Part shown: piece after piece, positions 13,221-52,000 of the stretch
Layout: each line of letters begins with the position of its first letter
Position numbering within the stretch: the first letter of the stretch is position 1
Assembly (NCBI RefSeq): GCF_026013545.1
Contig: NZ_JAPDOG010000017.1
Location: forward strand, 1-64,000
Source of the DNA: Defluviimonas salinarum
GTDB lineage: Bacteria; Pseudomonadota; Alphaproteobacteria; Rhodobacterales; Rhodobacteraceae
Length of the DNA stretch: 64,000 bases
Direction of reading: 5' to 3'
Translations under genes and position numbers: made by a program
The notes under the pieces: model-generated
Databases searched by the model: none
Told to the model about the DNA's origin: nothing
The model's input: the letters and a program-made list of their open reading frames with translations, nothing else

Positions 13221-13287
13221 GGTTCCCGACGTCGGTGCTGGCGATATGCGGATCGGACCGGGTCGGATCGGACGAGACCGGGCGCTT

Positions 13288-13376
13288 CCTTCCCCTCGTG
13301 GGGGAGGGAGAGGGTGAGGGGACGCCTGGTGGTTATCCCCCACCCCCATCCCCTCCCCACAAGGGGGAGGGGAGGC
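13288..13376. repeat. C/G-skewed intergenic palindromic repeat
   Basis: Blocks of CCCC/GGGG with interspersed A and T. The clearest hairpin has a 10-bp stem: TCCCCTCCCC (13349-13358) with GGGGAGGGGA (13364-13373). A second, partly symmetrical copy begins near 13291 (CCCCTCGTGGGGG). It resembles the CCCTCACCC/GGGGAGAGGG intergenic repeats common in alphaproteobacteria. It lies in the 240-base gap between the hypothetical gene and tex, where nothing else is visible, and could end tex transcription. Confidence 0.6.
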
Positions 13377-13460
13377 TCCCGAACCCGGCGTTTCGCAGTG
13401 GTTCGACCATCTTCCAAGGAAGCCTGACCGAGCCGGGGCTTGATGGCAAGCGGTGCGCCG

Positions 13461-15791
13461 TCAGCGCTTGCGCATCGCGTCGAGGAGCGCGGCGCCGAGC
13501 GCGCCGGTCGAGGCGCCTCCCGAGGGCGCGCCTTTCGGACCGGACGCCATCGGGCCTTTCGGGCCCCGCGCCGCCTGACCGCCCGGCCGCGCGTCGCGCG
13601 CGGCGCGGTCGTCGCGCGCCGAGCTGCCGCCGTCCTTGCGCATGGTCAGCCCGATGCGCTTGCGCGCCACGTCGACCTCGGTCACCCGCACCTTCACCAC
13701 GTCGCCCGCCTTCACGACCTCGTGCGGGTCCTTCACGAAGCGGTCGGCGAGCTGGCTGACATGGACGAGCCCGTCCTGATGCACGCCGATATCGACGAAG
13801 GCGCCGAAGGCGGCGACGTTCGTGACCGTGCCCTCCAGCACCATGCCGGGCTTCAGGTCCTTGATGTCCTCGACCCCCTCGGCGAAGCTCGCGGTGACGA
13901 AGCTCGGGCGCGGATCGCGGCCGGGCTTTTCCAGTTCGGCGAGGATGTCGCGCACCGTCGGCAGGCCGAACTTCCCGTCGACGAACTCCTCGGCCCGGAG
14001 CCGGCGCAGCGCCGCGGTGTCGCCCATCAGCGCCCGCAGGTCGCGGCCGCAGGCTTTCACGATGCGGCGGGCGACGTCGTAGGCCTCGGGGTGGACGGCG
14101 GAAGCGTCCAGCGGCTCGGCGCCGTCGCGGATCCTGAGAAAGCCCGCGCATTGCTCGAAGGCGCGGGGGCCGAGGCGGGTGACGTCGAGAAGGTCCTTGC
14201 GCGAGCGGAAGGCGCCCTTTGCGTCGCGATGGGCGACGATCGCCTCGGCAAGGCCGGGGCCGAGGCCGGAGACATGCGCGAGAAGCGGCGCCGAGGCGGT
14301 GTTGAGATCGACGCCGACCGCGTTCACCGCGTCCTCGACCACGGCTTCGAGCGCGCGCGAGAGCCGGTGCTGGTCGACATCGTGCTGGTACTGGCCGACG
14401 CCGATCGACTTCGGCTCGATCTTCACCAGTTCCGCGAGCGGGTCCTGCAGCCGCCGCGCGATCGAGACTGCGCCGCGCAAGGAGACGTCGAGATCGGGGA
14501 ACTCCCGCGCCGCCAGTTCGGAGGCCGAATAGACCGAGGCGCCGGCCTCGGAGACGACGACCTTGGTGGGCGTCTTCACGCCTTTCGGCAGGAGCTTCAG
14601 CGTCTCGGTCACCAGCCGCTCGGTCTCGCGGCTGGCGGTGCCGTTGCCGATGGCGATGAGCTCGACGCCGTGCTTCGCGACGAGCTGGAGGATTGCCGCT
14701 TGCGCGCCGCGCAGGTCGTTCTTTGGCTGGAACGGATAGAGCGTCTCGGTCGCGACGAGTTTGCCGGTGGCATCAACGACGGCGGCCTTGACCCCGGTGC
14801 GGATGCCGGGATCGAGGCCGAGCGTCGCGCGCGGCCCGGCCGGGGCGGCCAGGAGCAGGTCCTTGAGATTGCGGGCGAAGACCTGGATCGCCTCCTCATG
14901 GGCGCGGCCGCGCAAGGTGCCGAGAAGGTCGAGCATCATCGTCATCGAGAGCTTCACCCGCCAGGTCCAGCCCGCGACGCCGCGCAGCCATTCATCGCCC
15001 TTGCCGCTGCCGCGCGGGTCGAGTGCGGCCGCCACGATCGCCTCGGCGCGGGCCGCGCCGACCTCGGGTTCGGGGCCGATGTCGAGCGTGACGACGCCCT
15101 CGTTCGAGGCGCGCAGAAGCGCCAGCGCCCGGTGCGAGGGGATGCTAGCCCACAGCTCGCGGTGGTCGAAATAGTCGGAGAACTTGGCGCCCTTCTCCTC
15201 CTGCCCGGCGATCACCCTGGCGCTGACCACGGCCTCCTTCTGCATGAAGTCCCGGAGCCCGCCGAGAAGGCCCGCGTTTTCCGCGAGCCCCTCGGCGATG
15301 ATGTCGCGGGCGCCCGCGAGCGCGTCCTTCACCGTCGGCACCGCCTCGGTCACGAAGCCGGCGGCCAGCGCCTCGGGGTCGGCCATGCGGTCGGCGAGGA
15401 TCGCCTCGACCAGCGGCTCCAGCCCGTTTTCCCGCGCGATCATCGCCTTGGTGCGGCGCTTGGGCTTGTAGGGCAGGTAGATGTCCTCGAGCTCGGCCTT
15501 CGTTACCGCCTTGGCGATCGACAGCGCGAGGTCGTCGGTCAGCTTGTCCTGCGACCTGATCGAGTCGACGATCGCCGCGCGCCGCGCTTCCAGCTCGCGC
15601 AGGTAGGTGAGCCGGTCGGCCAGCGTCCGGAGCTGGCTGTCGTCGAGCCCGTCCGTCACCTCCTTGCGGTAGCGCGCGACGAAGGGCACGGTCGCGCCCT
15701 CGTCGAGAAGCGTCACGGCAGCGGTGACCTGTTCGGGACGGGCGCCGATCTCGGTCGCGATGGTCCCGGCGATGCGTCTTGCAGTATCCAA
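13461..15791 (-). CDS. tex: Tex-family S1 RNA-binding transcription accessory protein
   Basis: Tex is a nucleic-acid-binding protein linked to transcription and stress survival. The 776-residue product has the N-terminal helical region (LLDEGATVPFVARYRKE), the YqgF-like domain (TLGLDPGIRTGVKAAVVD), a helix-hairpin-helix section (NTASAPLLAHVSGLGPGLAE, then FRSRKDLLDVTRLGPRAFEQ) and a C-terminal S1 domain (GMVLEGTVTNVAAFGAFVDI). A basic, Gly/Ala-rich tail follows. The start is TTG 15791 (Leu-Asp-Thr-Ala-Arg), with GGAGGAG 4 bases upstream. The longer reading frame upstream has no better start. It is divergent from the 16054 operon. Confidence 0.93.
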   Translation of the reverse strand: MDTARRIAGTIATEIGARPEQVTAAVTLLDEGATVPFVARYRKEVTDGLDDSQLRTLADRLTYLRELEARRAAIVDSIRSQDKLTDDLALSIAKAVTKAELEDIYLPYKPKRRTKAMIARENGLEPLVEAILADRMADPEALAAGFVTEAVPTVKDALAGARDIIAEGLAENAGLLGGLRDFMQKEAVVSARVIAGQEEKGAKFSDYFDHRELWASIPSHRALALLRASNEGVVTLDIGPEPEVGAARAEAIVAAALDPRGSGKGDEWLRGVAGWTWRVKLSMTMMLDLLGTLRGRAHEEAIQVFARNLKDLLLAAPAGPRATLGLDPGIRTGVKAAVVDATGKLVATETLYPFQPKNDLRGAQAAILQLVAKHGVELIAIGNGTASRETERLVTETLKLLPKGVKTPTKVVVSEAGASVYSASELAAREFPDLDVSLRGAVSIARRLQDPLAELVKIEPKSIGVGQYQHDVDQHRLSRALEAVVEDAVNAVGVDLNTASAPLLAHVSGLGPGLAEAIVAHRDAKGAFRSRKDLLDVTRLGPRAFEQCAGFLRIRDGAEPLDASAVHPEAYDVARRIVKACGRDLRALMGDTAALRRLRAEEFVDGKFGLPTVRDILAELEKPGRDPRPSFVTASFAEGVEDIKDLKPGMVLEGTVTNVAAFGAFVDIGVHQDGLVHVSQLADRFVKDPHEVVKAGDVVKVRVTEVDVARKRIGLTMRKDGGSSARDDRAARDARPGGQAARGPKGPMASGPKGAPSGGASTGALGAALLDAMRKR

Positions 15792-23928: not shown

Positions 23929-23960
23929 GCCGCCGCAATCAAATGCGGCGGCCCTTTCTT
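23929..23960 (+). terminator. Rho-independent terminator of the glx-glnT operon
   Basis: A perfect 9-bp stem, GCCGCCGCA (23929-23937) with TGCGGCGGC (23944-23952), loop ATCAAA, followed by CCTTTCTT. It lies 26 bases after glnT. Confidence 0.85.
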
Positions 23961-24089
23961 GCGGGGGAAGGAAACCGCGGCGCTGCGCTGCGTCAATGTG
24001 GCCGCCCGCGGCGGGCCATAGGCTGCTATGATGACGAGACGCGCCGCGGCCTGCGGCCAGGTGCAGCGGCGGCGCGGGGAAGGGGAGCC

Positions 24090-25157
24090 ATGTCCACCCG
24101 GGCCGCGAGTTTCCGGATCGATTGCAGCGCGTGTCTCGACGCGACAGGCAAGCCGATCGGCAAGCTGCCGGATTTCGCCGAGGATGCAAACACGCTCGCC
24201 GCGCTCTACGGCGCGATGGTGCGGACCCGCGCCTTCGACGCCAAGGCCATCGCGCTGCAGCGGACCGGGCGGCTCGGCACCTACGGGTCGAGCCTCGGCC
24301 AGGAGGCGATCGGCGTCGGCGTGGCGAGCGCGATGCGCGTTGAGGACGTGCTCCTGCCGTCCTTCCGCGAGCATGGCGCGCAGCTCTGGCGCGGCGTGAC
24401 GCTGGAGGAGCTGTTCCTCTACTGGGGCGGCGACGAGCGCGGCAACGACTTCGCGGGCCCGCGCCGCGATTTCCCGGTCTGCATTCCGGTCGGGACGCAG
24501 TTTCCCCATGCCGCCGGGGTCGCACTGGCGATGGTCCAGCGCAAGGAGTCGGGCGTCGTGGTGGCGATGGGCGGCGACGGTGCCACCTCGAAGGGCGACT
24601 TCTACGAGGCGCTGAACCTTGTCGGCGCCTGGGACCTGCCGGTCGTCTTCGTGATCAGCAACAACCAGTGGGCGATCTCGGTGCGCCGAAGGGAGCAGAC
24701 CGGGGCGCAGACGCTGGCGCAGAAGGCGATCGCGGGCGGTCTGCCCGGCGCGCAGGTCGACGGCAACGACGTGATCGCGGTCCGTGCTGCGACCGAGCGC
24801 GCGCTCGCGCACGCCCGCGCCGGCGAGGGCGGAAGCCTGATCGAGTGCCTGACCTACCGGCTCGGCGACCACACCACCGCCGACGATGCCAGCCGTTACC
24901 GCGAGGATGAGGAGGTCAGCGCGCACTGGAAGGAGGAGCCGCTGGTGCGGCTCCGCAATCTTCTCGTCGCGCGCCACGGCTGGGACAAGGCGAAGGAGGA
25001 GGCGCTTCTGCGCGAGGTGCGGGCCGAGGTCGAGGCGGCGGCCGATCGCTATCTCGCCATCGAACCGGCGCCGCGCCGGGCGATGTTCGACCATCTCCAC
25101 GCAACCCTGCCGCCCGACCTCGCCGCGCTGGCCGAGGAGGCGGCGGGCGATGGCTGA
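24090..25157 (+). CDS. 2-oxoacid dehydrogenase E1 alpha subunit (pyruvate/branched-chain type)
   Basis: The thiamine-diphosphate (TPP) subunit of a 2-oxoacid dehydrogenase, 355 residues. The TPP/Mg motif is intact: GDGATSKGDFYEALNL to the SNNQWAIS segment. Substrate-side features include LPSFREHGAQLWRG and LGDHTTADDASRYR, the latter typical of branched-chain and Bacillus-type E1alpha. It should pair with the next gene as an alpha2beta2 E1. The start at ATG 24090 has GGGGAGCC upstream. The operon continues with E1beta, E2 and an amino-acid dehydrogenase, favouring branched-chain amino-acid breakdown. No E3 gene is present. Confidence 0.87.
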   Translation: MSTRAASFRIDCSACLDATGKPIGKLPDFAEDANTLAALYGAMVRTRAFDAKAIALQRTGRLGTYGSSLGQEAIGVGVASAMRVEDVLLPSFREHGAQLWRGVTLEELFLYWGGDERGNDFAGPRRDFPVCIPVGTQFPHAAGVALAMVQRKESGVVVAMGGDGATSKGDFYEALNLVGAWDLPVVFVISNNQWAISVRRREQTGAQTLAQKAIAGGLPGAQVDGNDVIAVRAATERALAHARAGEGGSLIECLTYRLGDHTTADDASRYREDEEVSAHWKEEPLVRLRNLLVARHGWDKAKEEALLREVRAEVEAAADRYLAIEPAPRRAMFDHLHATLPPDLAALAEEAAGDG

Positions 25158-26130
25158 GTTGACCATGATCGAGGCGATCCGGGCGGCGCTCTCCCATGCG
25201 CTTGAGACCGATCCCGACGTGATCCTCTTCGGCGAGGATATCGGCATCGATGGCGGCGTCTTCCGCGCCACCGACGGGCTCATGCAGCGGTTCGGCTCGG
25301 CGCGGGTGCGCGACACGCCGCTGTCGGAGACGGTGATAGCCGGCATGGCGGTGGGCGCGGCCGCGATGGGGCTGAGGCCGGTGGCCGAGATCCAGTTCTC
25401 GGGCTTCCTCTATCCGGCGCTCGACCAGCTCGTGAACCATGCGTCGCGGCTCAGGAACCGCACCCGCGGGCGGCTCACCTGCCCGATGGTGCTGCGCGCG
25501 CCCTATGGCGGCGGCATCCGCGCGCCCGAGCACCATTCGGAGAGCCCCGAGGCGATGCTCGCCCATATCCCCGGCTTGCGCGTCGTGATCCCGGGCTCGC
25601 CGGCACGGGCCTACGGGCTTCTCCTCGCGGCGATCCGCGATCCCGATCCGGTCGTGTTCCTCGAACCGAAGCGGATCTACCGCGCGGTGAGCGAGGCGGT
25701 GGAGACCGATGGCGCGGCGCTGCCGCTCGACCGGGCGTTCCTCGTTGCCGAGGGCGAGGACCTCACGCTCGTCGCCTGGGGGGCGATGCTGGCCGTGGCG
25801 GACGAGGCGGTGGCGCGACTCGCCGAGGAGGGCATCTCGGCCGAGCTCATCGACCTCGCCACGATCAAGCCCTACGACCGGGTGGCGGTGCGGGCCTCGG
25901 TCGCCAAGACCGGGCGCTGCGTGATCGTGCACGAGGCGGCGCTGACGACGGGGTTCGGCGCCGAGATCGCGGCTGACCTGGCCGAGCATTGCCTGACGCA
26001 TCTGATCGCGCCAATTCGCCGGGTCGCGGGCTACGACACGGTCATGCCCTATCTCAGGCTCGAGGCGCAGTACCTGCCGGATACCGGACGCATCCTTCGA
26101 GCCGCCCGCGAGGTGATGGAGTTCACATGA
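25150..26130 (+). CDS. 2-oxoacid dehydrogenase E1 beta subunit
   Basis: The E1 beta partner, 326 residues. The catalytic Glu that activates TPP lies in FGEDIGIDGG. Other family blocks are RVRDTPLSET, RPVAEIQFSGFLYPALDQLVNH (split over the conserved helix), PEHHSESPEAM, where HHSES replaces the QHSQS of pyruvate types, and LIDLATIKPYD. It overlaps E1alpha by 8 bases and E2 by 4 bases, so the three products are made in fixed ratio. Confidence 0.88.
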   Translation: MAELTMIEAIRAALSHALETDPDVILFGEDIGIDGGVFRATDGLMQRFGSARVRDTPLSETVIAGMAVGAAAMGLRPVAEIQFSGFLYPALDQLVNHASRLRNRTRGRLTCPMVLRAPYGGGIRAPEHHSESPEAMLAHIPGLRVVIPGSPARAYGLLLAAIRDPDPVVFLEPKRIYRAVSEAVETDGAALPLDRAFLVAEGEDLTLVAWGAMLAVADEAVARLAEEGISAELIDLATIKPYDRVAVRASVAKTGRCVIVHEAALTTGFGAEIAADLAEHCLTHLIAPIRRVAGYDTVMPYLRLEAQYLPDTGRILRAAREVMEFT

Positions 26131-27236
26131 CGACATTCAGGCTTCCCGACCTCGGAGAAGGGCTGATGGAGGCGGAGATCGTCGCCTGGCAGGTCTCGGT
26201 CGGCGATCATGTCACGACCGACCAGCCACTCCTGACGGTGGAGACCGACAAGGCGGTGGTCGAGATCCCGGCCCCCTATGCGGGCACCGTCAGGGCGCTT
26301 CTGGCCGACCCGGGCGAGGTGGTGGCCACAGGCGCGCCGCTTGTGGAGATCGACACCGGCAAGGGCGCGGACACCGGTGCCATCGTCGGCGACTTCGCGG
26401 CGCCCGAGCCGGCACGGCCTACCGCGCCGGTTCGGGTCGCGCACAAGGCGCCAGCCAGGGTTGCCGCCGCGCCGGCGGTGCGGCGGCTCGCCGAGGAGCA
26501 GGGCGTCGACCTTGCGGCGCTCAAGGGAAGCGGGCCGGGCGGGGCGATCACCTCGGCCGATGTCCGGGCGGCGACCTCGGGCCTCTCGGGCGGCGCGGAG
26601 CTTCGTGGCGTGCGCCGGGCGATGGCGCGCGCGATGGCAGCGGCGCACCGCTGCGTCGTGCCGGCGACGGTGACCGACCGCGCCGATATCCACGGCTGGC
26701 CGCCGGGCGAGCCGCCGACGCCGCGGCTCGTCCATGCCATCGTCGCCGCCTGCCGGGCCGAGCCCGCGCTCAATGCCTGGTTCGACGGGACGCGGCGGCA
26801 GCTTCACGACCATGTCGACCTCGCGGTCGCGGTGGACACGCCCGACGGGCTTTTCGCGCCGGTGCTGCGCGGCGCCGAGGCAGCGGAGAACGTCGCCGCG
26901 GAGGTCGCATCCCTTCGCCGGGCGGTGGAGGCCCGCACGCTCGCGCCCGAGGATCTCAGGGGCGGCACGATCACGCTGTCGAATTTCGGGATGATCGCGG
27001 GCGAGCATGCGGCGCTCGTGGTGACCCCGCCGCAGGTGGCGATCGTCGGCGCGGGGCGGATCGCCGAGGCGGTCGTCGCAGTCGGCGGTGCCCCGGCGGT
27101 GCGACGGCTTCTGCCGCTGTCGCTGACCTTCGATCATCGCGCCGTCACCGGCGGCGAGGCCGCGCGGTTCCTCGCCGCGCTCCGCGCCGATCTGGAGCGG
27201 CCGGCGATCAGCGGAAAGGAGGCGGGCGATGGATGA
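26127..27236 (+). CDS. Dihydrolipoamide acyltransferase E2 subunit
   Basis: The core acyltransferase of the complex, 369 residues. A single N-terminal lipoyl domain carries the lipoate Lys42 (VETDKAVVEI). A short Ala/Pro linker leads to a peripheral-subunit binding domain (PAVRRLAEEQGVDLAALKGSGP, read in two parts) and the catalytic domain. The active-site His lies in DHRAVTGG, where Thr stands at the position of the usual Asp (HRxxDG). The E2 is short, with one lipoyl domain. It overlaps E1beta and the following dehydrogenase gene. Confidence 0.88.
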   Translation: MTTFRLPDLGEGLMEAEIVAWQVSVGDHVTTDQPLLTVETDKAVVEIPAPYAGTVRALLADPGEVVATGAPLVEIDTGKGADTGAIVGDFAAPEPARPTAPVRVAHKAPARVAAAPAVRRLAEEQGVDLAALKGSGPGGAITSADVRAATSGLSGGAELRGVRRAMARAMAAAHRCVVPATVTDRADIHGWPPGEPPTPRLVHAIVAACRAEPALNAWFDGTRRQLHDHVDLAVAVDTPDGLFAPVLRGAEAAENVAAEVASLRRAVEARTLAPEDLRGGTITLSNFGMIAGEHAALVVTPPQVAIVGAGRIAEAVVAVGGAPAVRRLLPLSLTFDHRAVTGGEAARFLAALRADLERPAISGKEAGDG

Positions 27237-39085: not shown

Positions 39086-39099
39086 CTGACGCGCGTCAA
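39086..39099 (+). promoter_or_regulatory. CRP/FNR-family box upstream of the Tat-E1 operon
   Basis: CTGACGCGCGTCAA, one base off TTGAC-N4-GTCAA and itself an almost perfect palindrome. Its centre is 100 bases before ATG 39193. It lies in the 166-base gap after the P-ATPase gene. Confidence 0.55.
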
Positions 39100-39192: not shown

Positions 39193-40416
39193 ATGACAGA
39201 CCATCAAGGGAATCTGGTGACCTGCCCTGAAGACGAAGGGCAAGCACCGCAATCTGAAGGCCGCCGCGGCTTTCTCAAGCTCGCGGCACTGACCGGCGCG
39301 GCGGCATCGCTGTCGACGCGGCGGGCGCTCGCAAACGGCGACATCGGCTATCACGCGATGGATCTGCCGGACGACAAGCTCGTCGACATGTACCGGACGA
39401 TCCTGAGGATCCGCTGGCACGAGCGGACCCAGGCCGACCAGATGCTCGCGAACCCCGACTACCGGGGCTACAACCACTTCTATGCCGGGCAGGAGGCGGT
39501 CGCGACCGGCGTCTGCGCGGCCCTGCGCAATGACGGGCCGTTCGAGCAGATCGACCTCGTCTATTCCTCGCACCGGCCCTCTGGCCATGCCATCGCCAAG
39601 GGCGTCGACATCCCGACGATGGTGGCCGAGATGGACTTCCGCGCCACCGGCATGAACGGCGGCTACGCGGCCGAGATGCATATCTCGGACCCCTCGGTGG
39701 GCTTCATCGGCGCCGACGGGATGATCGGCCCGGCGCCGGTCATCGCCTCGGGCTCGGCCTTCGCCTTCCGGGCGCGCGGCTCGGACCAGGTGGCGGTGGT
39801 CTTTGCGGGCGACGGCAACTACGCCGCGCCGCATTTCCATTCCACGCTCAACAACGCGAAGCTTCTCGACCTGCCGCTGATCTACGTGTGCGAGAACAAC
39901 CTCTATCACCAGTACGCGCATTACTCGTACTCCTGCCCGCACAAGGACATCGCCGATGCGGCGGCGGCCTACGGCATCCCGTCGCGCACCGTCGACGGGC
40001 AGGACGTGACCCAGGTCTACAACGTTGCGAAGGAGGCGGTGGACCGCGCCCGCGCCGGCGGCGGCCCGAGCTTCATCGAGGCCAAGACCTACCGCTACTA
40101 CAACCACTGGGGCGCCCCCGGCGCCAAGGAGGGCGAGCTCGGTGCCTTCGGCTACGACCCGCTCGCCATCACCTCTTTCCGCCCCGAGCGCGAGGTCCGC
40201 GCCTGGATGCAGCGCGATCCGGTGGACATCGCGCGCAACATCCTCGTCGACTGGGGAATCCTCGAGGAACAGAAGGCGCTCGACATCGAGGCGGAGGTCA
40301 AGGCCGAGATCGCCGCGGCTTTCGAATGGGCGCTCTCGCAACCGCTCTGTACGCCCGAGGATGGTCTCAAGCACGTCTTTGCCGAAGGCACGGTGCCGGC
40401 CCGCCAATTCGGCTGA
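39193..40416 (+). CDS. Tat-signal E1alpha: TPP-dependent 2-oxoacid dehydrogenase-like subunit
   Basis: A 407-residue E1alpha-family protein with a twin-arginine export signal. The signal has the motif RRGFLK (24-29), a weakly hydrophobic core LAALTGAAASLS and a cleavage site after ALA (47). The catalytic body follows: HFYAGQEAVATGV, SSHRPSGHAIAKG, and the TPP/Mg motif AGDGNYAAPHFHS to the CENNLYHQY segment. It has the usual GDG and NN, but an unusual NYAAPHFHS where most enzymes have NxGxFHE. ATG 39193 has GGGAGG upstream; a GTG or ATG farther up would bury the signal. Known E1alpha proteins are cytoplasmic, so a Tat signal is unexpected. E1beta follows directly, without E2 or E3. Confidence 0.82.
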   Translation: MTDHQGNLVTCPEDEGQAPQSEGRRGFLKLAALTGAAASLSTRRALANGDIGYHAMDLPDDKLVDMYRTILRIRWHERTQADQMLANPDYRGYNHFYAGQEAVATGVCAALRNDGPFEQIDLVYSSHRPSGHAIAKGVDIPTMVAEMDFRATGMNGGYAAEMHISDPSVGFIGADGMIGPAPVIASGSAFAFRARGSDQVAVVFAGDGNYAAPHFHSTLNNAKLLDLPLIYVCENNLYHQYAHYSYSCPHKDIADAAAAYGIPSRTVDGQDVTQVYNVAKEAVDRARAGGGPSFIEAKTYRYYNHWGAPGAKEGELGAFGYDPLAITSFRPEREVRAWMQRDPVDIARNILVDWGILEEQKALDIEAEVKAEIAAAFEWALSQPLCTPEDGLKHVFAEGTVPARQFG

Positions 40417-40449
40417 CCCCATTGCCTTCGCGCGTGAAAGGATACGCAA

Positions 40450-41421
40450 ATGACTGAGAAAAGCTGGATGTATTCGGTCCTTGAGGCCGTGCAACACGAA
40501 ATGCGCGAGGATCCGGCGCTGACCTGGATCTTCGAGCTGACCCCGCCAGTGGCGTCGAACCCGAACATGCCGGTGATCAACCTCGAGACCGAGTTCGGCC
40601 GCAAGCGCGTGGTCAACACAGGGATCGACGAGAACTGGATGGCATCGGCGGTGCTCGGCGCCGGGCTCGCGGGCTCGCGGGCGGCGACCTACATCCCCTA
40701 TCAGGGCGCGCTGATGCCGCTCGAGGTGATCCAGAACGTCGCCGGGAAGCTTCGCCACATGACCGGCGGCAAGGCCGCGATGCCGGTGGTCTGGGTGATC
40801 GAGATGACCGGCCAGACGCCCGGCTTCGCGGGGCAGCATTCCTGCTACGAGGAGGACAGCTTCTACATGCACATCCCCGGTGTGCGGACGGTCATCCCGT
40901 CGACGCCCTATGACGCCAAGGGGATGATGCACGCCGCGCTGCGCTCCCCCGATCCGGTGGTCTATCTCTATCCCGCCGGCCTCAGGACGCTGACCGAGGA
41001 AGTGCCCGACGAGCCCTACGAGGTGCCGCTCGACAAGGCGGCGGTGCGGATTGAAGGCAGTGACCTCACCATCGTCAGCTCCGGCGGCGGCATGCCGGGG
41101 GTGCTGGAGGCTGCGGAAGTGCTGAAGGGTGAGGGCATGGGGGTCGAGGTCATTGATCTGCGGGTCTTGAAGGAGATGGACACCGAGACGCTCGTCACCT
41201 CGGTCGCTAAGACCAAGCGGCTTTTGACGGTGGACCAATCCTACTACACGCTCGCTCCGGGGGCCGAGGTCGTCGCCCGCTGCGCCGAGAACGTCGAGGG
41301 CGCTCGGTTCAAGCGGGTCGCCTTCCCCGACGCGCCGCCGCCGGCCTCGCCGGAGATGTTCCTGTGGATGCGGCCGAACGCCGAAGGCATCGCGGGGGCG
41401 GCGCGTGCGCTCGTCGGCTGA
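40450..41421 (+). CDS. E1beta partner of the Tat-signal E1alpha
   Basis: A 323-residue E1beta-family protein. The conserved blocks can be read but are divergent: WIFELTPP stands at the GED(V/I)G position (the Glu may be kept), NTGIDENWMASAVLGAGLAG matches DTPxxE-GxAxGAA, GQHSCYEEDSFYMHIPGV matches QHSQ-E, and PSTPYDAKGMMHAALRSPDP is canonical. No signal peptide is present, so if the complex is periplasmic the subunit must cross folded with E1alpha (Tat hitchhiking). It lies 33 bases after E1alpha with an ATG start. Confidence 0.82.
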   Translation: MTEKSWMYSVLEAVQHEMREDPALTWIFELTPPVASNPNMPVINLETEFGRKRVVNTGIDENWMASAVLGAGLAGSRAATYIPYQGALMPLEVIQNVAGKLRHMTGGKAAMPVVWVIEMTGQTPGFAGQHSCYEEDSFYMHIPGVRTVIPSTPYDAKGMMHAALRSPDPVVYLYPAGLRTLTEEVPDEPYEVPLDKAAVRIEGSDLTIVSSGGGMPGVLEAAEVLKGEGMGVEVIDLRVLKEMDTETLVTSVAKTKRLLTVDQSYYTLAPGAEVVARCAENVEGARFKRVAFPDAPPPASPEMFLWMRPNAEGIAGAARALVG

Positions 41422-41743
41422 CACGGCGCGCGACGGCGGCGCGGCGGTGGACCCGGTGGACGCCGCCCCGCGCTGCCAGTCCTGCGGCAATGGCCGGCTC
41501 GCGCGCGACCGGATCAAGACCGCGCTCTGGTCCGGCAGTCGGCTTGTGGTGGTCGAGGACGTGCCGGCGCTCGTCTGCGGGTACTGCGGCGAGCAGTTCT
41601 ACGAGGACGAGACGGCGATGCGGCTCGACATGCTGAAGGGGGGCGGCTTTCCCTCCGCCGAGGCGACGCGCGAGATGGTCGTGGCGGTCTTCGCCTTCGA
41701 GGCGCCCCGGCCGGACGATGGGGGCGGGGGCGATGAGCGTTAG
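41405..41743 (+). CDS. YgiT-type zinc-ribbon protein
   Basis: A 112-residue protein with two CxxC knuckles (CQSCG at 24-28 and CGYCG at 58-62) in the arrangement of YgiT/MqsA-type zinc fingers (VPALVCGYCGEQFYED). It lacks the DNA-binding HTH that follows in MqsA antitoxins, and no toxin gene is adjacent. The GTG start at 41405 overlaps the end of E1beta by 17 bases, and its end overlaps the next gene by 11 bases. It is therefore tightly tied to the E1/cytochrome genes, perhaps as an assembly factor; its role is unknown. Confidence 0.65.
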   Translation: MRSSADTARDGGAAVDPVDAAPRCQSCGNGRLARDRIKTALWSGSRLVVVEDVPALVCGYCGEQFYEDETAMRLDMLKGGGFPSAEATREMVVAVFAFEAPRPDDGGGGDER

Positions 41744-42278
41744 GAGGCTCTTGGCGGCGGTCGTGGCCGGGCTCTCCGCCGCGCCCGCGCTGGCGGACGA
41801 TTTCGCCTTCATGCCGCCCGGCGGTGGTTCGATCCTTGCCGGGTCGCTCTTGCCCGGCGACGCGACGGGCCTTGCCGAGGCGGCCGCCCGAAAGGCGAGC
41901 GCCGAGGACTGGGCCGCCTGGGCCCGCGAGCGCAATCCCGACTTGCCCGACGCCGCCATCGAGACCTTCGCGGGCTATGCCGCGCTGAACTTCCCCATGG
42001 CCGCCGAAGCGGCGCAGTCGCTCGCCGAAAGCGGAGATCCGGCACTCCTGCCGCCTGACGGCAAGGAACTGGCGATCGCCCAGTGCCAGTTCTGCCATTC
42101 GCTCTTCACCGGCTACCTGATGCAGGACCGGGACGAGACCAACTGGCGCGGCACCTTCAAGGCGCCGTTCCATGCCGAGATCCCGATGAGCGAGGTCGAA
42201 CGCGACACCTTCGCCCATTACTCCGCGATCAACATGCCGCTGAAGTTCGGGGACGTGCCGCCGGAACTCCGGTTCTGA
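41733..42278 (+). CDS. Periplasmic cytochrome c, E1-associated, copy 1
   Basis: A 181-residue secreted protein. The Sec signal (LLAAVVAGLSAAPALA) is followed by a DDFAFMPPGGGS start, an approximately 85-residue helical region, and a single haem motif CQFCH (118-122) in the C-terminal half. His147 (APFHAEIP) is conserved in the paralogue downstream and may be the sixth ligand; Met is less likely. This layout, a haem domain behind a conserved FAFxPxGG domain, is not one I recognise from standard cytochromes c. ATG 41733 overlaps the zinc-ribbon gene. Confidence 0.78.
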   Translation: MSVRRLLAAVVAGLSAAPALADDFAFMPPGGGSILAGSLLPGDATGLAEAAARKASAEDWAAWARERNPDLPDAAIETFAGYAALNFPMAAEAAQSLAESGDPALLPPDGKELAIAQCQFCHSLFTGYLMQDRDETNWRGTFKAPFHAEIPMSEVERDTFAHYSAINMPLKFGDVPPELRF

Positions 42279-42300
42279 CATCTGTGAGGGAGACGAGCCG

Positions 42301-42858
42301 ATGAGATGTTCCCACCGCCGCGCGGCCTTCCTGACTGCCCTGATCGCTGCCGTGGCGGTCGCGGCCGCCGCTCAGGACGAGGTCTTCGCCTTCATCCCCG
42401 ACGGCGGCCGGACGCTTCTGGAGACCGCGCGCGCGGAGCGGCTGCCCGAGGGGCTCGAAGGCGCCATCGCTTCGCAGGAGGGCGATGCCGAGACCTGGCG
42501 CGGGCGGCTGGAAGCGGCGCAGGCCGACGCGCCCGCGCTCGCCGCGCTCGACGCCTGGCAGACCGATACGCTGGCACATTACCTTGCCGCCAACGCGCCC
42601 CTCGCCGCGGGCGAGTTGCCACGCGACGGGCGCGACATGGCGCTGCAGCTCTGCCAGTCCTGCCACATCATCACCGTTGTCGTCACGCAGGAACGCACCC
42701 GCGAAGCCTGGCTCCGCACGATGAACTCGCCAAGCCATATCGAGATTGCAACGACGCCCGCCGAACGCGAGGCACTGGCGGATTACCTCGTGATCAACGC
42801 GGGCATACCGATCGACCAGATCCCGCCGGAACTGCGCGCTGGCGGGGCCTCCTACTGA
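42301..42858 (+). CDS. Periplasmic cytochrome c, E1-associated, copy 2
   Basis: A 185-residue paralogue of the preceding protein. It has a signal peptide (AAFLTALIAAVAVAAAAQ), an EVFAFIPDGGRTLL start, the haem motif CQSCH at the same position (118-122), a conserved His146 (SPSHIEI), and the shared ending IPPELR. The Met in copy 1 (INMPL) is replaced (INAGI), so the conserved His is the better candidate for the sixth ligand. The two may form a two-haem relay or heterodimer. It starts 22 bases after copy 1, with GAGGGAGACGAGCCG upstream. Confidence 0.78.
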   Translation: MRCSHRRAAFLTALIAAVAVAAAAQDEVFAFIPDGGRTLLETARAERLPEGLEGAIASQEGDAETWRGRLEAAQADAPALAALDAWQTDTLAHYLAANAPLAAGELPRDGRDMALQLCQSCHIITVVVTQERTREAWLRTMNSPSHIEIATTPAEREALADYLVINAGIPIDQIPPELRAGGASY

Positions 42859-42897: not shown

Positions 42898-44328
42898 ATG
42901 CTGTTCACCACGCTCGACTTCCTGCTCTTCCTTCCCGCCGCCGTCCTCGTCTTCTGGCTCCTGCCGGCGCGCCTGCGGCTGGCATGGCTCGTGCTGGCGA
43001 GCCTCGTCTTCTACGGCAGCTTCGGGCTCGGGAACCTGATCTATCTCTCCGCCGTCGTGATCATCGTCCTTGTTGTCGGGCGTGTGCTGCGGGCGAAGGC
43101 GCCGGGCGCGCGGCGCGCGGCGTTGTGGGTGGGCACGCTCGCCATCCTCGCGATGATGGGGCTCCTGAAGTACTACGATCCGGTCGCGGCGGGCATCGAC
43201 GGGCTGCCGGCCCTCGGCCTCACCTCGCCGGCGGGGTTCTCGTTCTACGCCTTCACCGCAATCGCGCTGATCGTCGACCGCTACCGCGATCCGGAGGCGG
43301 CGCGGGCGGACGACGCGCAGGAGGTGCTCTACCTTGCGTGGTTCCCGAAGATCCTCGCCGGCCCGATCGAGCGGATCGAGCCGTTCGTCGAGGAGCTGAA
43401 CGACAAGACGCCGCTCGGCTGGCCGCAATTCGCGGCGGGCTTGCAACTCATCCTCTGGGGCCTCGTCAAGAAGGTCGTGATCGCCGACAATCTCGCGCCC
43501 TTCGTCGACCGCACCTATGCGATCCCGGCCTACGCGGTGCCCATCGAACTCATCCTCGCAAGCTACTTCTTCGCCTTCCAGATCTACTGCGACTTCTCCG
43601 GCTATACCGACATCGCGCGCGGCACCTCGCAGCTGTTCGGCATCCGGCTCTCGGAGAACTTCCGGCGCTCCTACTTCGCGCATTCGGTGGGCGAGTTCTG
43701 GTCGCGGCGCTGGCATGTCTCGCTCGCCGACTGGTTCCGGGACTATGTCTACTTCCCGCTCGTCGGCCCCGAGCGAAAAGCCTGGCGGATGTATGCCGGG
43801 CTGATGGTCGTCTTCGTCCTGAGCGGCATCTGGCACGCCGGTCTCGGTTACGGCATCGGCTGGGGCTTCGTCGCCTGGGGGCTCCTGAACGGCGTCTATC
43901 TCTGGGGTGAGCGGGCGCTCAACCCGCTCAGGCGGCGGCTTCGCAAACGGCTTGGCGGAGGCTGGCTCGGGCGGGTGCACGAGATCGCGGCGATCCTCAC
44001 CGTCTTCCACCTCGTGCTGGTCAGCTGGGTCTTCTTCCGGGCCGGTGACCTCGGTGACGCCATGACGATCCTCACCCGGATCTGGCAGAGCCTGCCGGGG
44101 CTGCCTGCGCTCCTGACCCGCTACCCGTTCACCGGCGAACAGGCCTTCCTCGCGCTTCTCATCGCCGCGCTCCTCGTGATCGAGGCGGCGATGGAGCGGC
44201 CCGCCACCGCCGACCGCTTCGCCGCCGCGCCGGCGCTTTTGCGCTGGCCGGTCTGGCTCGCCTGCCTGTTCGCGCTGATCCTCCTCGGCCGGTGGGACAG
44301 CGAGGTCTTCGTCTACATGCAGTTCTGA
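42898..44328 (+). CDS. MBOAT-family membrane O-acyltransferase (AlgI-like)
   Basis: A 476-residue polytopic membrane enzyme of the MBOAT family, related to alginate O-acetyltransferase AlgI. Family features are FPKILAGPIERIEPF, the FQIYCDFSGYTDIARG block, SVGEFWSRRWHVSLADWFRD and the catalytic His in LSGIWHAGLG. It would move an acyl (usually acetyl) group across the membrane to a surface polysaccharide or similar acceptor. The partner transferase is probably the next gene. It starts 39 bases after the second cytochrome gene and may belong to the same transcript, although the functional link is unclear. Confidence 0.88.
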   Translation: MLFTTLDFLLFLPAAVLVFWLLPARLRLAWLVLASLVFYGSFGLGNLIYLSAVVIIVLVVGRVLRAKAPGARRAALWVGTLAILAMMGLLKYYDPVAAGIDGLPALGLTSPAGFSFYAFTAIALIVDRYRDPEAARADDAQEVLYLAWFPKILAGPIERIEPFVEELNDKTPLGWPQFAAGLQLILWGLVKKVVIADNLAPFVDRTYAIPAYAVPIELILASYFFAFQIYCDFSGYTDIARGTSQLFGIRLSENFRRSYFAHSVGEFWSRRWHVSLADWFRDYVYFPLVGPERKAWRMYAGLMVVFVLSGIWHAGLGYGIGWGFVAWGLLNGVYLWGERALNPLRRRLRKRLGGGWLGRVHEIAAILTVFHLVLVSWVFFRAGDLGDAMTILTRIWQSLPGLPALLTRYPFTGEQAFLALLIAALLVIEAAMERPATADRFAAAPALLRWPVWLACLFALILLGRWDSEVFVYMQF

Positions 44329-44339
44329 AAGGCATTGGA

Positions 44340-45302
44340 ATGCACAGCCTCAGCCGCCCGCCGCCGACCTTGCCGTGGACCCGTATCGCGGCTTTCCTCG
44401 GCCTCTTCGCCGCGATCTACGTCGCCGCCGCCGCCATCGCCGAGGTCCGCGTCGGCCGGGCCGGGCAGGGGGCGATGCAGGACCTCCTCGCCGCGAAGGG
44501 CAGCCAGGTCGACTGGATCGTCTTGGGCGCCTCGCATGCCCTGCCGCTCGCCTACGGCGGCGTTCCCGAACGGCTGGAAGCGGAGACCGGGCAGCGCATG
44601 ATGGTGCTCGCCGAGGTGGGCGCGGGGCCGCTTTACGCCGACTTCGTGCTGCGTCAGGCGCGTGTCGACATTGAGCCGAAGCATATTCTCTATGTCGCGG
44701 ACTCGTTCGCGTTCCGTTCGCCCCGCTGGAACGAGGAGCGCATCGCCGACCGCAAGCTCCTGCGCAAGACGCCTTGGCGGGCCTCCACGCTCGGCATTCT
44801 GGCCGGGTTGGCCGGGTCGGAGGGCATCGCTCCGGGCGCGCTTCTCGACTATGCTCTGGGCTTTTCGAAGCTCAACCCACCCGACCGGTTCCCGCAAGAC
44901 GACTGGCGCGGGGCGGAAAACTTCGACCGCAGCTTCCGGCCGTCGCGTCACGCCACCGGGGCGCGGATCGGCTATCTCTATCCCGAAGGCGCCGCGAAGG
45001 CGGACCCCGGCCGCTATCTCGACGCGCTGGAGGCCATGTTCGCGAGGGCCCGGGCCGAGGGTCTGAGCGTCACCGTCGTCAAGCTGCCGGTGCCGGACGC
45101 CTTCCGCGAGGCCCTGCCCGGCGAGACGGAGTTCGACGCCGCACTTGCCGCCCGCCTCGCGCCGCTCGGCATCCCGCTCCACGATCTGAGCGCGGCGCTG
45201 GCCGATCCGCGCCTCTACTTCGACACCGATCACCTCAACCGTGACGGCATTGATCTACTCTACGAACGCCATCTGGGACCGATCCTCGCGGCCGGCGGCT
45301 GA
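44340..45302 (+). CDS. SGNH/AlgX-J-like membrane-anchored acyltransferase partner
   Basis: A 320-residue protein with one N-terminal membrane helix (IAAFLGLFAAIYVAAAAIAE) and a large periplasmic domain. The Ser nucleophile is probably in VLGASHALPL, and the Asp/His pair is in YFDTDHLNRDG, as in SGNH enzymes that follow MBOAT proteins (AlgJ/AlgX, DltD-like). It would complete O-acetylation in the periplasm. It starts 11 bases after the MBOAT gene. The acceptor is unknown and no polysaccharide genes are nearby. Confidence 0.72.
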   Translation: MHSLSRPPPTLPWTRIAAFLGLFAAIYVAAAAIAEVRVGRAGQGAMQDLLAAKGSQVDWIVLGASHALPLAYGGVPERLEAETGQRMMVLAEVGAGPLYADFVLRQARVDIEPKHILYVADSFAFRSPRWNEERIADRKLLRKTPWRASTLGILAGLAGSEGIAPGALLDYALGFSKLNPPDRFPQDDWRGAENFDRSFRPSRHATGARIGYLYPEGAAKADPGRYLDALEAMFARARAEGLSVTVVKLPVPDAFREALPGETEFDAALAARLAPLGIPLHDLSAALADPRLYFDTDHLNRDGIDLLYERHLGPILAAGG

Positions 45303-46827: not shown

Positions 46828-48569
<1,742 letters not shown>

Positions 48570-48573
<4 letters not shown>

Positions 48574-50570
48574 CCGACGCCGCACTGAAGCCCCGCCTCG
48601 ACCACGGCCATGTCCGTGACCTCCTCAAGGCGATGATCCGCATCCGCCGGTTCGAGGACAAATGCGCCGAGCTTTACACGCAGGAAAAGATCCGCGGCTT
48701 TCTCCACCTCTACGACGGCGAGGAGGCGGTGGCGGCGGGCGTGATCCCGGTTCTGGCCGAAGCCGACCGGATCGTCGCCACCTACCGCGAGCACGGCCAC
48801 GCGCTGGTGCGCGGCCTGCCGATGGGTGAGGTTCTGGCCGAGATGTACGGCAAGGCCGAGGGCTCGGCCGGCGGGCGCGGCGGGTCGATGCATCTCTTCT
48901 CGGCAAGCGCGAACTTCTACGGCGGCAACGCCATCGTCGGCGGCGGGCTGCCGCTCGCGGTGGGCCTCGCGCTGGCCGACAGGATGCAGGGCGCAGACGC
49001 CGTCACCGCCTGCTTCTTCGGCGAGGGCGCGGTGGCCGAGGGCGAGTTCCACGAGGCGATGAACCTCGCCTCGCTCTGGAACCTGCCGGTGCTCTTTGTC
49101 TGCGAGAACAACGGCTACGCGATGGGCACCGCACTCGACCTTTCCGAGGCCGAGACCGACATCGCAGCCAAGGCACGCAGTTATGACGTCGTCGCCGACG
49201 TGGTCGACGGAATGGACGTCGTCGCGGTCGAGGCCGCGACCCGCCGCGCGCTCGCGCAGATGCGCGAGACCGGCGAGCCCCATTTCCTCGAATGCCGCAC
49301 CTACCGCTTCCGCGCGCATTCGATGTTCGACGCCCAGCTCTACCGCCCGAAGGAAGAGGTGGAGGACTGGCGCCGGAAAGGCCCCATCGTCCGCTTCCAG
49401 GGCTGGCTCGAGGAGAACGGCCTGATCCATGCCGAGGAGGTCGCCGCGATCACCGCCGAGCTCGATGCTGAGATCGCCGAGGCCGTCGCCTTCGCCGAGG
49501 CGGGCACGGACGAGCCGGTGGAGACGCTGACGCGCCACGTCATGGCCGAGGAGCGGCCCGCGCCGCCCGAGCCTGCCAAGCCAGAAAAGACGGTGGAGAC
49601 CACCTACCGCGAGGCGGTCAAGGCCGCCATCGCCGAGGCGATGGAGAAGGACGAGCGCGTCTTTCTCATGGGCGAGGATGTCGGCCGCTACGGCGGCTGC
49701 TACGCGGTCTCGAAGGGGCTTCTCGACCGCTTCGGCCCCGACCGCATCCGCGACACGCCGCTTTCCGAATCGGGGTTCACCGGCGCCGGGATCGGCGCGG
49801 CGATGGCGGGGATGCGGCCCATCGTCGAGGTGATGACGGTCAACTTCTCGCTGCTGGCGCTCGACCAGATCCTGAACACCGCCGCCACCTACCGGCACAT
49901 GTCGAACAACGCCTTCGGCGTGCCGGTTGTGATCCGCATGGCGACCGGCGCGGGCCGCCAGCTCGCGGCCCAGCATTCGCATTCGCTCGAAGGCTGGTAC
50001 GCGCATATCCCCGGCGTCCGCGTCCTCGCCCCGGCGACGCTCGAAGACGCGCGCGGCATGCTCTGGACCGCGCTGCAGGACCCCGACCCGGTGCTGATCT
50101 TCGAGAACGTGATGCTCTACAACATGGCCGGGGACTTGGCCCAGAACGCCGGTCCCGTCGATATCGACAAAGCGGCCGTGCGCCGCGCCGGGCGGGACAT
50201 CACGCTCGTCACCTATGGCGGCTCGCTCTGGAAGACGCTGGAGGCCGCGGCGGAGCTGGTGAAGGACGGGATCGAGGCCGAGGTGATCGACCTGCGCAGC
50301 CTCAGGCCCCTCGACTTGGAGACGGTCTTCGCCTCGGTCGCGAAGACCCACCGTGCGCTCATGGTGGACGAGGGCTGGAAGACCGGCAGCCTTGCCGCCG
50401 AGATCGGGATGCGCCTCGCCGAGGAGGCGTTCTTCGACCTCGACGCGCCCCTGGCCCGCGTCTGCAGCGCCGAGGTTCCGATCCCCTACGCCCGCCATCT
50501 CGAACAGGCGGCGATCCCGCAGGTTCCCTCCATCGTCGCGGCGGCGCGGCGGCTTTGCGGGAAGGGCTGA
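48570..50570 (+). CDS. Fused E1alpha-E1beta 2-oxoacid dehydrogenase (pyruvate/acetoin type)
   Basis: A 666-residue fusion. E1alpha occupies residues 1-326, an Ala/Pro/Glu linker about 327-342, and E1beta 343-666. The TPP/Mg motif runs from [14 protein letters not shown] to CENNGYAMG (151-181); it has GEG where most have GDG. The E1beta part keeps [12 protein letters not shown] (catalytic Glu), IRDTPLSE and [14 protein letters not shown]. Most E1alpha and E1beta proteins are separate, so the fusion is uncommon. Co-expression with E2, ACP and an AMP ligase, and an FNR-type box, suggest a low-oxygen acetyl-generating or acetyl-consuming route. There is no E3. Confidence 0.87.
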
Positions 50571-50573
50571 GGC

Positions 50574-51728
50574 ATGGGCGAGTTCCGCATGCCCTCGCTC
50601 GGCGCCGACATGGAGGCGGGAACCCTCGTCGAATGGCTGAAGGCGCCGGGAGACCGCGTCGCGCGCGGCGACATCGTCGCGGTCGTGGAGACCCAGAAGG
50701 GCGCCATCGAGATCGAGGTGTTCGAGGACGGTTTGCTGGAGCGGACTCTGGTCGGAACCGGCACGACAGTGCCCGTGGGCACGCCGCTCGCCGTGATCCG
50801 CGCCCCCGGCGAGGCCGCCGCTCCGACCCCCACGCCGGAGCCCGAAGCACCCGCGCCGGAACCCGTGCCGCGACCGGAACCCGCCGCACCGCCGCCTGCC
50901 TCCGGAGAGCGGCTCCGCATCACGCCGCTGGCGCGGCGGCTGGCCGAGAAGAAGGGTCTCGACGAGGCCCGGCTGCGCGCCATCGCGGGCACGGGACCCG
51001 AGGGGGCGATCACGCTCCGCGATCTCGAGGCACCGGGCGAAGCGCCCGCGGAACCCGCCGCGCCGATGACCGAGATGCGCGCCGCCATCGCCGCCGCGAT
51101 GGCGCGCTCGAAGCGCGAGATCCCGCATTACTACCTGGCGCAGCAGGTGGATCTGACTCCTGCCTCGGCGTTCCTCGCGGCGGCAAATGCCGACCGCGCG
51201 CCGGAAGACCGGATCCTGATGGGCGCGCTCTTTCTCCACGCGGTCACCCGCGCCGCGAGGGAGTACCCCGAGTTCAACGGCCACTTCACCGACGGCGCCT
51301 TCCACCCCTCGGCAGAGATCCATGCCGCGATGGCCGTGGCCCTGCGCGGCGGCGGGCTCGTCGCCCCCGCGATCCTCGACGCCGGCGCCTGCGATCTCGC
51401 GTCACTCATGGCGCGGATGCGCGACACGCTCGGCCGGGTCCGCACCGGCCGCTTCCGCGCCCGCGAGCTTTCGGAGGCGACGATCACCGTCACCAGCCTC
51501 GGAGAGCGGGGCGTCGACACGCTTTATGGCGTCATTCAGCCGCCGCAGGTCGCCATCGTCGGCTTCGGCACCCCCGCCGAACGCCCCGTCGTGCGTGACG
51601 GCACCATCGCCGCCGCCATGACGACGACCGTCACGCTCGCTGCCGACCACCGCGTCAGCGACGGCCATCGCGGCGCGCTCTTCCTGCGCGCCATCGACCG
51701 CAACCTGCAGGAACCGGAGGCGCCATGA
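50574..51728 (+). CDS. Dihydrolipoamide acetyltransferase-like E2
   Basis: A 384-residue E2 with one lipoyl domain (lipoate Lys42 in VVETQKGAIEI), a Pro/Glu-rich linker, a subunit-binding domain (ITPLARRLAEKKGLDEARL, near 116-152) and the catalytic domain with the active-site motif DHRVSDGHRG. The usual His and Asp are present here, unlike the E2 at 26127. It starts 3 bases after the fused E1 gene and overlaps the ACP gene by 4 bases. Confidence 0.88.
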   Translation: MGEFRMPSLGADMEAGTLVEWLKAPGDRVARGDIVAVVETQKGAIEIEVFEDGLLERTLVGTGTTVPVGTPLAVIRAPGEAAAPTPTPEPEAPAPEPVPRPEPAAPPPASGERLRITPLARRLAEKKGLDEARLRAIAGTGPEGAITLRDLEAPGEAPAEPAAPMTEMRAAIAAAMARSKREIPHYYLAQQVDLTPASAFLAAANADRAPEDRILMGALFLHAVTRAAREYPEFNGHFTDGAFHPSAEIHAAMAVALRGGGLVAPAILDAGACDLASLMARMRDTLGRVRTGRFRARELSEATITVTSLGERGVDTLYGVIQPPQVAIVGFGTPAERPVVRDGTIAAAMTTTVTLAADHRVSDGHRGALFLRAIDRNLQEPEAP

Positions 51729-52000
51729 CATCGGACCCGATCGAAGACCTCGTGCGCAAGGAGCTCGGCCGCATCGCCCCCGATGTCGACCCGGGCGAGA
51801 TCGACCGCAAGGGCGACCTGCGCGAGGAATGCGACATCGACTCGCTCGATTTCCTCAACCTCGTCACCGCGCTCGGCAAGGCGCTGTTGCTGCCGATGCC
51901 CGAGGCGGACTACCCGAAGATGCGCAGCTACGACGCGCTGGTCGCGTATCTGCGCACGTCCAGGCACGCTCCCGACAGCGACGCCAGCCCGTCATCCTGA
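51725..52000 (+). CDS. Acyl carrier protein
   Basis: A 91-residue, very acidic carrier protein. The phosphopantetheine Ser lies in DIDSLDFLNLV, the canonical DSL motif. It overlaps the E2 gene by 4 bases (ATGA). Its presence in a 2-oxoacid dehydrogenase operon is striking: the acetyl group made by E1-E2, or by the AMP ligase, might be passed to ACP instead of CoA. It is not the fatty-acid-synthesis acpP, which lies in a different neighbourhood in this group. The 94 bases to glpR contain no obvious terminator. Confidence 0.85.
   Translation: MTSDPIEDLVRKELGRIAPDVDPGEIDRKGDLREECDIDSLDFLNLVTALGKALLLPMPEADYPKMRSYDALVAYLRTSRHAPDSDASPSS

Follow-up and report, generated by a model that had tools for sequence, protein, structure and literature searches.

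We analyzed a 64,000-nucleotide stretch of the Defluviimonas salinarum genome (contig NZ_JAPDOG010000017.1, positions 1 to 64,000; hereafter the window), which carries on its forward strand an operon for a two-chain thiamine pyrophosphate (TPP)-dependent enzyme of the 2-oxoacid dehydrogenase E1 type together with two cytochromes c and two acyltransferases. An earlier note on this DNA had described five genes at 39193–42858, and their coordinates and features were borne out in the window: E1alpha with a twin-arginine translocation (Tat) signal (39193–40416), a signal-less E1beta (40450–41421), a signal-less YgiT-type zinc ribbon protein with paired CxxC...CxxC motifs (41405–41743), and the secreted monohaem cytochromes c1 (41733–42278, with an alternative in-frame ATG at 41718) and c2 (42301–42858). 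The operon does not end where the note stopped, and two further genes were missed: the conserved run continues past 42858 with a DltB/PatA-like membrane acyltransferase of the MBOAT family (42898–44328) and a membrane-anchored, DltD/PatB-like SGNH acyltransferase (44340–45302, with an alternative GTG start at 44292).

Relatives of the operon were collected by scanning genome contigs with a profile of five same-genus E1alpha copies (the window's and four others, 71–91% identity); it relied on a pair of short peptide patterns, which more distant family members may escape. It returned 54 loci that lie, according to their record titles, in Alpha- and Betaproteobacteria, with Roseovarius marisflavi and Marimonas arenosa among the cultured carriers, and the window and L040 (genome G010, same genus) bring the comparison to 56 rows. 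These rows represent fewer than 56 genomes, as two metagenome-assembled genomes supply several rows (L054 and L055; L082, L093 and L096); judging from length and coordinates, L043, L047 and L072 are apparently the same contigs as G018, G002 and G015. The seven genes follow one another as E1alpha, E1beta, zinc ribbon, c1, c2, MBOAT and SGNH, with median intergenic gaps of -1 to 34 bp; the tight packing described for the window, where the zinc ribbon and E1beta open reading frames overlap by 17 bp, comes with an order kept across the 56 rows. The complete set was present in 47/56 rows, and the genes absent from the remaining nine lie beyond a contig end. Interrupted frames (MBOAT/SGNH in L049, c1 in L091) were scored as present where a match exists, and the true c2 of L091 is located at 13154–13732. 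Chance is ruled out for the five-gene arrangement, given its conservation across the 56 rows. Approximate clustering gave no eighth gene nearly as common, the next-ranking family occurring in 14 loci, and no glycosyltransferase, polymer-synthesis or other further gene was conserved beside the seven in the clustered loci. The operon is small, rare and clean, consisting of seven genes that occur together.

The rarity was evident at each sampling level. A full-length close E1alpha was found in 5/61 relative genomes, and the cytochromes and the full-length SGNH were each found in the identical five. In the class samples E1alpha occurred in 2/385 and the cytochromes in 2/372, again in the identical two genomes, and in the phylum sample the system was present in 1/398, the window's own genome only. 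The cytochromes never occurred without the E1 in the genomes sampled, and the pairing of a Tat-signal E1alpha with two cytochromes, for which the earlier note had suggested a genome search, proved strict there. In a tree with 10 of the 56 rows, the E1 family formed one clade with 100/100 support and a long stem. Nine second-tier E1 loci (34–39% identical) had no zinc ribbon, cytochromes, MBOAT or SGNH at E 1e-3 in the 6.2–16 kb of sequence covered per locus, with flanks of uneven length and three loci limited by contig ends. Plasmid spread was considered and rejected, because the E1alpha matches on plasmids (166 records at E 1e-40) were all below 60% identity and included no close family member. 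Separately, the window's own genome contains two equal-scoring E1_dh matches with identical tree rows (C1:427571–428449 and C52:2618–3496), representing either a duplication or an assembly artefact.

E1alpha matches the Pfam family E1_dh (E 4.5e-52) and E1beta matches Transketolase_C/Transket_pyr, and both score far under the curated cut-offs of the pyruvate dehydrogenase (PDH) models. The Tat signal assigned to E1alpha was confirmed in the window, with RRGFLK at residues 24–29 and ALA at 45–47, and the motif RRx[FLM][LMI] was found in 53/53 E1alpha sequences with an available N-terminus (L074, L094 and L096, where it is missing, were excluded). A hydrophobic stretch follows the motif and Ala-x-Ala is present in many rows; signal sequences were judged by eye throughout. 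The window's own genome encodes TatC. E1beta is confirmed to have no signal sequence, so any export of this chain would have to be in company with E1alpha, and the two chains may well leave the cytoplasm together.

The catalytic apparatus appears intact. The TPP motif of E1alpha (G206-D-G ... N235-N236) and His305, as well as Glu61 and His130 of E1beta, are invariant in the family alignment and align with solved E1 structures; we take the Glu and His residues to have the catalytic roles of E1 enzymes. The earlier note had regarded loss of the catalytic Glu or the TPP ligands, or a Tat-less homologue with an E2 in its operon, as fatal to its proposal of an exported enzyme; these residues were retained in every sequence, and no such homologue was seen where this could be tested. 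A conserved family stretch of about 15 residues follows His305 of E1alpha, where the T. thermophilus and human E1alpha are gapped. In known complexes, the loop after this position lines the mouth of the channel to which the lipoyl domain docks.

Seven E2 and E3 query proteins had no relative in the other loci. For E2, the queries were the two E2 proteins of the window (50574 and 25989), which belong to other E1 pairs; among the 57 sequences searched, with flanks of up to 10 kb on each side and some shorter, they had no relative outside the window, and a very distant E2 would escape this search. For E3, five of the eight pyridine-nucleotide disulfide reductases of the window's own genome gave no match in these sequences at E 1e-8. 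The window also contains, at 46828–51952, successive genes for an acetate-CoA (coenzyme A) ligase, a PDH with E1alpha and E1beta fused, an E2 and an acyl carrier protein of small size. A further E1alpha/E1beta pair, the third, lies at 23943–27236 together with a lipoyl E2 of its own; its neighbours are a glutamine synthetase and an amino acid dehydrogenase of the ELFV type.

The two secreted cytochromes c of the earlier note are present, each with one CxxCH. Neither matches a Pfam or NCBIfam family at E 0.001, and the assignment was made because of the CxxCH and the signal-like N-terminus. A second His is conserved in both (His147 of c1, 52/52; His146 of c2, 50/50, L091 excluded), and no Met in the haem half of either protein is invariant throughout the alignment, so His/His haem ligation is plausible from these sequence patterns. 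The very end of c2 reads LRAGGA[S/T]Y in 51/51 sequences (L074 and L094, which reach a contig end, were excluded). The predicted c2 structure has a predicted local distance difference test score (pLDDT) of 89, with residues 182–184 below 50, and this low model confidence suggests that the tail is probably flexible. The zinc ribbon protein matches the NCBIfam model YgiT_finger (E 1.2e-11).

The MBOAT protein scored 142 bits on the DltB model, under its curated cut-off of 375. His273, His313 and His371 are conserved in 48/48 sequences, and the C-terminal acyl-shuttle motif, FVYMQF in the window, takes the form F[VI]YxxF in 46/47 complete sequences, excluding L048, L068 and L078 (cut) and L049 (interrupted); the variant AIYMQF of L077 retains the Tyr. 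The SGNH fold and its Ser/Asp-His motifs (GASH in block I and DTDH in block V) are present in the predicted model, which has a pLDDT of 95, and in the sequence; among PDB structures the model matched DltD best (E 2.3e-6) and also matched PatB (E 3.3e-4), and the TM-scores were modest, at about 0.4 relative to the query. PMC12148441 reports that the Tyr of the PatA FxYxxF motif is acetylated and argues that the acyl group is handed on first to the serine of SGNH and from there to the polymer, each step being downhill; the MBOAT-SGNH pairs described there take acyl groups from acyl-CoA or acyl-carrier proteins and move them outward onto polymers. In our rows the pair is encoded wherever the contig is long enough. 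An acyl-transfer pair that always stands beside an acyl-generating E1 suggests a transfer of the acyl group from one to the other.

The region upstream of the operon contains candidate FNR-type sites in many loci. The FNR consensus and FnrL stress-protein targets in Dinoroseobacter are given in PMC5398030. In 23/53 loci the strict form TTGAY-N4-RTCAA was found in the 400 bp preceding the RR codons, compared with 0.05 expected under a first-order Markov model, and the window is not among these 23. For TTGAT-N4-ATCAA, simple shuffles gave expectations of 0.19, 2.8 and 21.7 loci with up to one, two and three mismatches, and 20/53, 35/53 and 49/53 were observed, respectively. The candidate FNR/Crp-type palindrome of the window, CTGACgcgcGTCAA (39086–39099, forward strand), has three mismatches to TTGAT-N4-ATCAA and lies some 93 bp before the start of E1alpha, about the same position as the better sites in relatives.

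Recurring neighbours of the operon include the Pfam families Usp, CBS, Hsp20, BON and DUF2267 and, by eye, N-type ATPase, GroEL and Crp/Fnr regulators, which together look like a stress island. Genes resembling an N-type F-ATPase operon were seen by eye less than 10 kb from the E1 operon in L047, L049, L050, L057 and L083. A nitroreductase-like protein recognized by eye at L065:15845–16564 has the Tat-like N-terminus SRRSLLLTAG, and its cluster was found close to the operon in 8 loci. Nine rows, among them the window (51725–51952), encode an acyl carrier protein nearby, and the protein of the window is related to one that accompanies the operon in other loci. Acetate-CoA ligases of the window type occur in 8 rows including the window, the other seven being 63–71% identical and one of them partial; the match in L075 is only 29% identical. 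With only 8 and 9 rows, the ligase and the carrier protein were treated as context rather than core. The upstream P-type ATPase, with relatives (33–52% identical) in six other rows only, and the downstream Na/H antiporter, found in no other row, were likewise rejected as core genes.

The first five genes are most simply explained by the export of a folded E1 that has cytochromes dedicated to it, and conservation gives good support to the predicted export and redox coupling. Extending this to all seven genes, we tentatively propose, giving the idea not quite even weight, a periplasmic, membrane-associated 2-oxoacid dehydrogenase in which the cytochromes would take the redox role of lipoyl and E3 and the MBOAT-SGNH relay would take the acyl group. 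E1alpha and E1beta would fold with TPP in the cytoplasm and exit together via Tat, and the periplasmic E1 would decarboxylate a 2-oxo acid, most likely pyruvate, with acetoin or other compounds as possible alternative substrates. The hydroxyalkyl-TPP would then be oxidized by c1/c2, with the electrons passing to the respiratory chain at low oxygen, and the acyl group on TPP would move to an acyl-tyrosine/acyl-serine relay of MBOAT and SGNH instead of lipoate. With its LRAGGA[S/T]Y tail, c2 has a candidate arm that could extend into the channel of E1. The acyl carrier protein (9 rows) and the acetate-CoA ligase (8 rows) near the operon count in favour of this reading. We infer the electron transfer from TPP to haem, the acyl hand-over to the relay and its direction, and the substrate of the enzyme. 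Given a dedicated acyl handler, the jobs of E2 and E3 would be split between relay and cytochromes. The earlier suggestion that the cytochromes replace E2/E3 is partly supported and would be narrowed to the redox role, the acyl role probably falling to the MBOAT-SGNH pair.

Several points weigh against this proposal. We found no precedent for an MBOAT-SGNH pair coupled to an acyl-producing E1, and the pairs described in PMC12148441 run outward. Oxidation of hydroxyalkyl-TPP at the level of cytochromes would waste energy compared with the formation of NADH. The scheme gives the zinc ribbon no role, the c2 model gave no significant structural match in the PDB, and the function of the c2 tail is guessed from its conservation alone. 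The FNR-type site of the window is degenerate, with three mismatches, and is not significant on its own. Fragments were also seen apart from complete operons: a 34-residue E1alpha-like stretch (76% identical) in G019 (L127:8224–8325), a genome with no cytochromes or SGNH and with a weak MBOAT match that overlaps this stretch, and an extra 56-residue SGNH C-terminal fragment (75%) in G010 (L129:8125–8292), apart from its full operon. Both fragments are probably decayed remnants.

The first alternative, which we regard as somewhat unlikely, is that the exported E1 is a respiratory enzyme resembling PoxB and nothing more: it would act on pyruvate, another 2-oxo acid, an aldehyde or an acyloin, free the acid and reduce the cytochromes, and the MBOAT-SGNH pair would acylate the envelope independently, merely co-expressed at low oxygen. 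E1 and cytochromes are sufficient for such a reaction, the nearby acetate-CoA ligase (8 rows) could recover acetate, and the FNR-type sites fit a stress regulon; MBOAT-SGNH pairs are moreover known as envelope acylators (PMC12148441). Mere co-regulation, however, is a weaker tie than the single fixed seven-gene order, no polymer-synthesis or other gene is conserved alongside, and the full-length family SGNH was found only in the five E1 carriers among the 61 relative genomes.

It is a good deal less probable that the pair works outward on the redox module itself, acylating, for example, the Ser/Thr or Tyr at the end of c2 to provide an anchor, a maturation step or a swinging arm that the E1-haem reaction needs. 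The final two residues of c2, [S/T]Y, do bear hydroxyl groups in 51/51 sequences, the tail has low model confidence and is probably flexible, and the nearby acyl carrier protein could serve as donor, as DltC does in Dlt. Its gene, however, is found in only 9/56 rows within the available flanks, and the MBOAT-SGNH pairs of PMC12148441 modify polymers, not proteins.

Slightly more doubtful still is an inward version of our proposal, a trans-membrane dehydrogenase that would import its product: periplasmic E1 would oxidize pyruvate with haem as the acceptor, and the high-energy acyl group would pass from TPP to the Tyr of the c2 tail, the SGNH Ser, the MBOAT Tyr and finally cytoplasmic CoA or acyl carrier protein. 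An inward relay of this kind would be new, but acyl-TPP should be reactive enough to drive it. Electrons and acyl group would then leave one intermediate by separate protein routes, and the relay would run opposite to the cases in PMC12148441.

We consider a carboligase role very unlikely, in which the exported E1 would attach an acyl unit to a sugar of the envelope and cytochromes and relay would serve the same polymer modification. E1-like pairs add acyl units to sugars in antibiotic pathways, and the MBOAT-SGNH pair does point to the envelope; yet a carboligase needs no electron acceptor and two cytochromes accompany this E1, and its neighbourhood has no conserved gene for a glycosyltransferase or for polymer synthesis. 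Finally, a non-functional Tat-like motif on a cytoplasmic E1 is scarcely credible: E1 enzymes of the 2-oxoacid dehydrogenase type are cytoplasmic elsewhere, but here RRx[FLM][LMI] is kept in 53/53 with a hydrophobic stretch and, in many rows, Ala-x-Ala, the partner cytochromes are secreted, and TatC is encoded in the genome.

If the proposed periplasmic dehydrogenase is correct, haem and an ester relay would share what is a one-step reductive acylation at lipoate, and central carbon oxidation would take place outside the inner membrane, a new way to oxidize organic acids. Titles and abstract beginnings of the open-licence literature, which are no proof of absence, contained no report of an exported E1-type TPP enzyme, of an E1 with haem instead of lipoate, or of an MBOAT-SGNH pair tied to oxidative decarboxylation.

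The E1 of the operon resembles the heterotetrameric E1 of 2-oxoacid dehydrogenases (PDH, branched-chain 2-oxoacid dehydrogenase and acetoin dehydrogenase type) in the fold families of both chains, the TPP motif and the catalytic Glu/His. Unlike these enzymes, it has a Tat signal, the insert after His305 and its own long-stemmed clade, and it is accompanied by two cytochromes and an acyl relay, with no E2/E3 relative found in the other loci. The acyltransferases share with PatAB and DltB/DltX/DltD (PMC12148441) the C-terminal FxYxxF of MBOAT, the fold and motifs of SGNH, and adjacent genes. In contrast to PatAB and Dlt, the operon pair is encoded with a TPP-dependent E1 and cytochromes and has no conserved polymer genes. 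Its MBOAT, with 142 bits against the DltB cut-off of 375, also differs from that of Dlt D-alanylation. PoxB, a pyruvate:quinone oxidoreductase, belongs to a different TPP family and is a single chain that contains FAD. No domain for this flavin cofactor was found in E1alpha or E1beta (Pfam, E 0.001). The operon enzyme differs from PoxB in its E1alpha/E1beta chains, its haem partners and its predicted export, and it would resemble PoxB in feeding the electrons of a 2-oxo acid through TPP straight into the respiratory chain.

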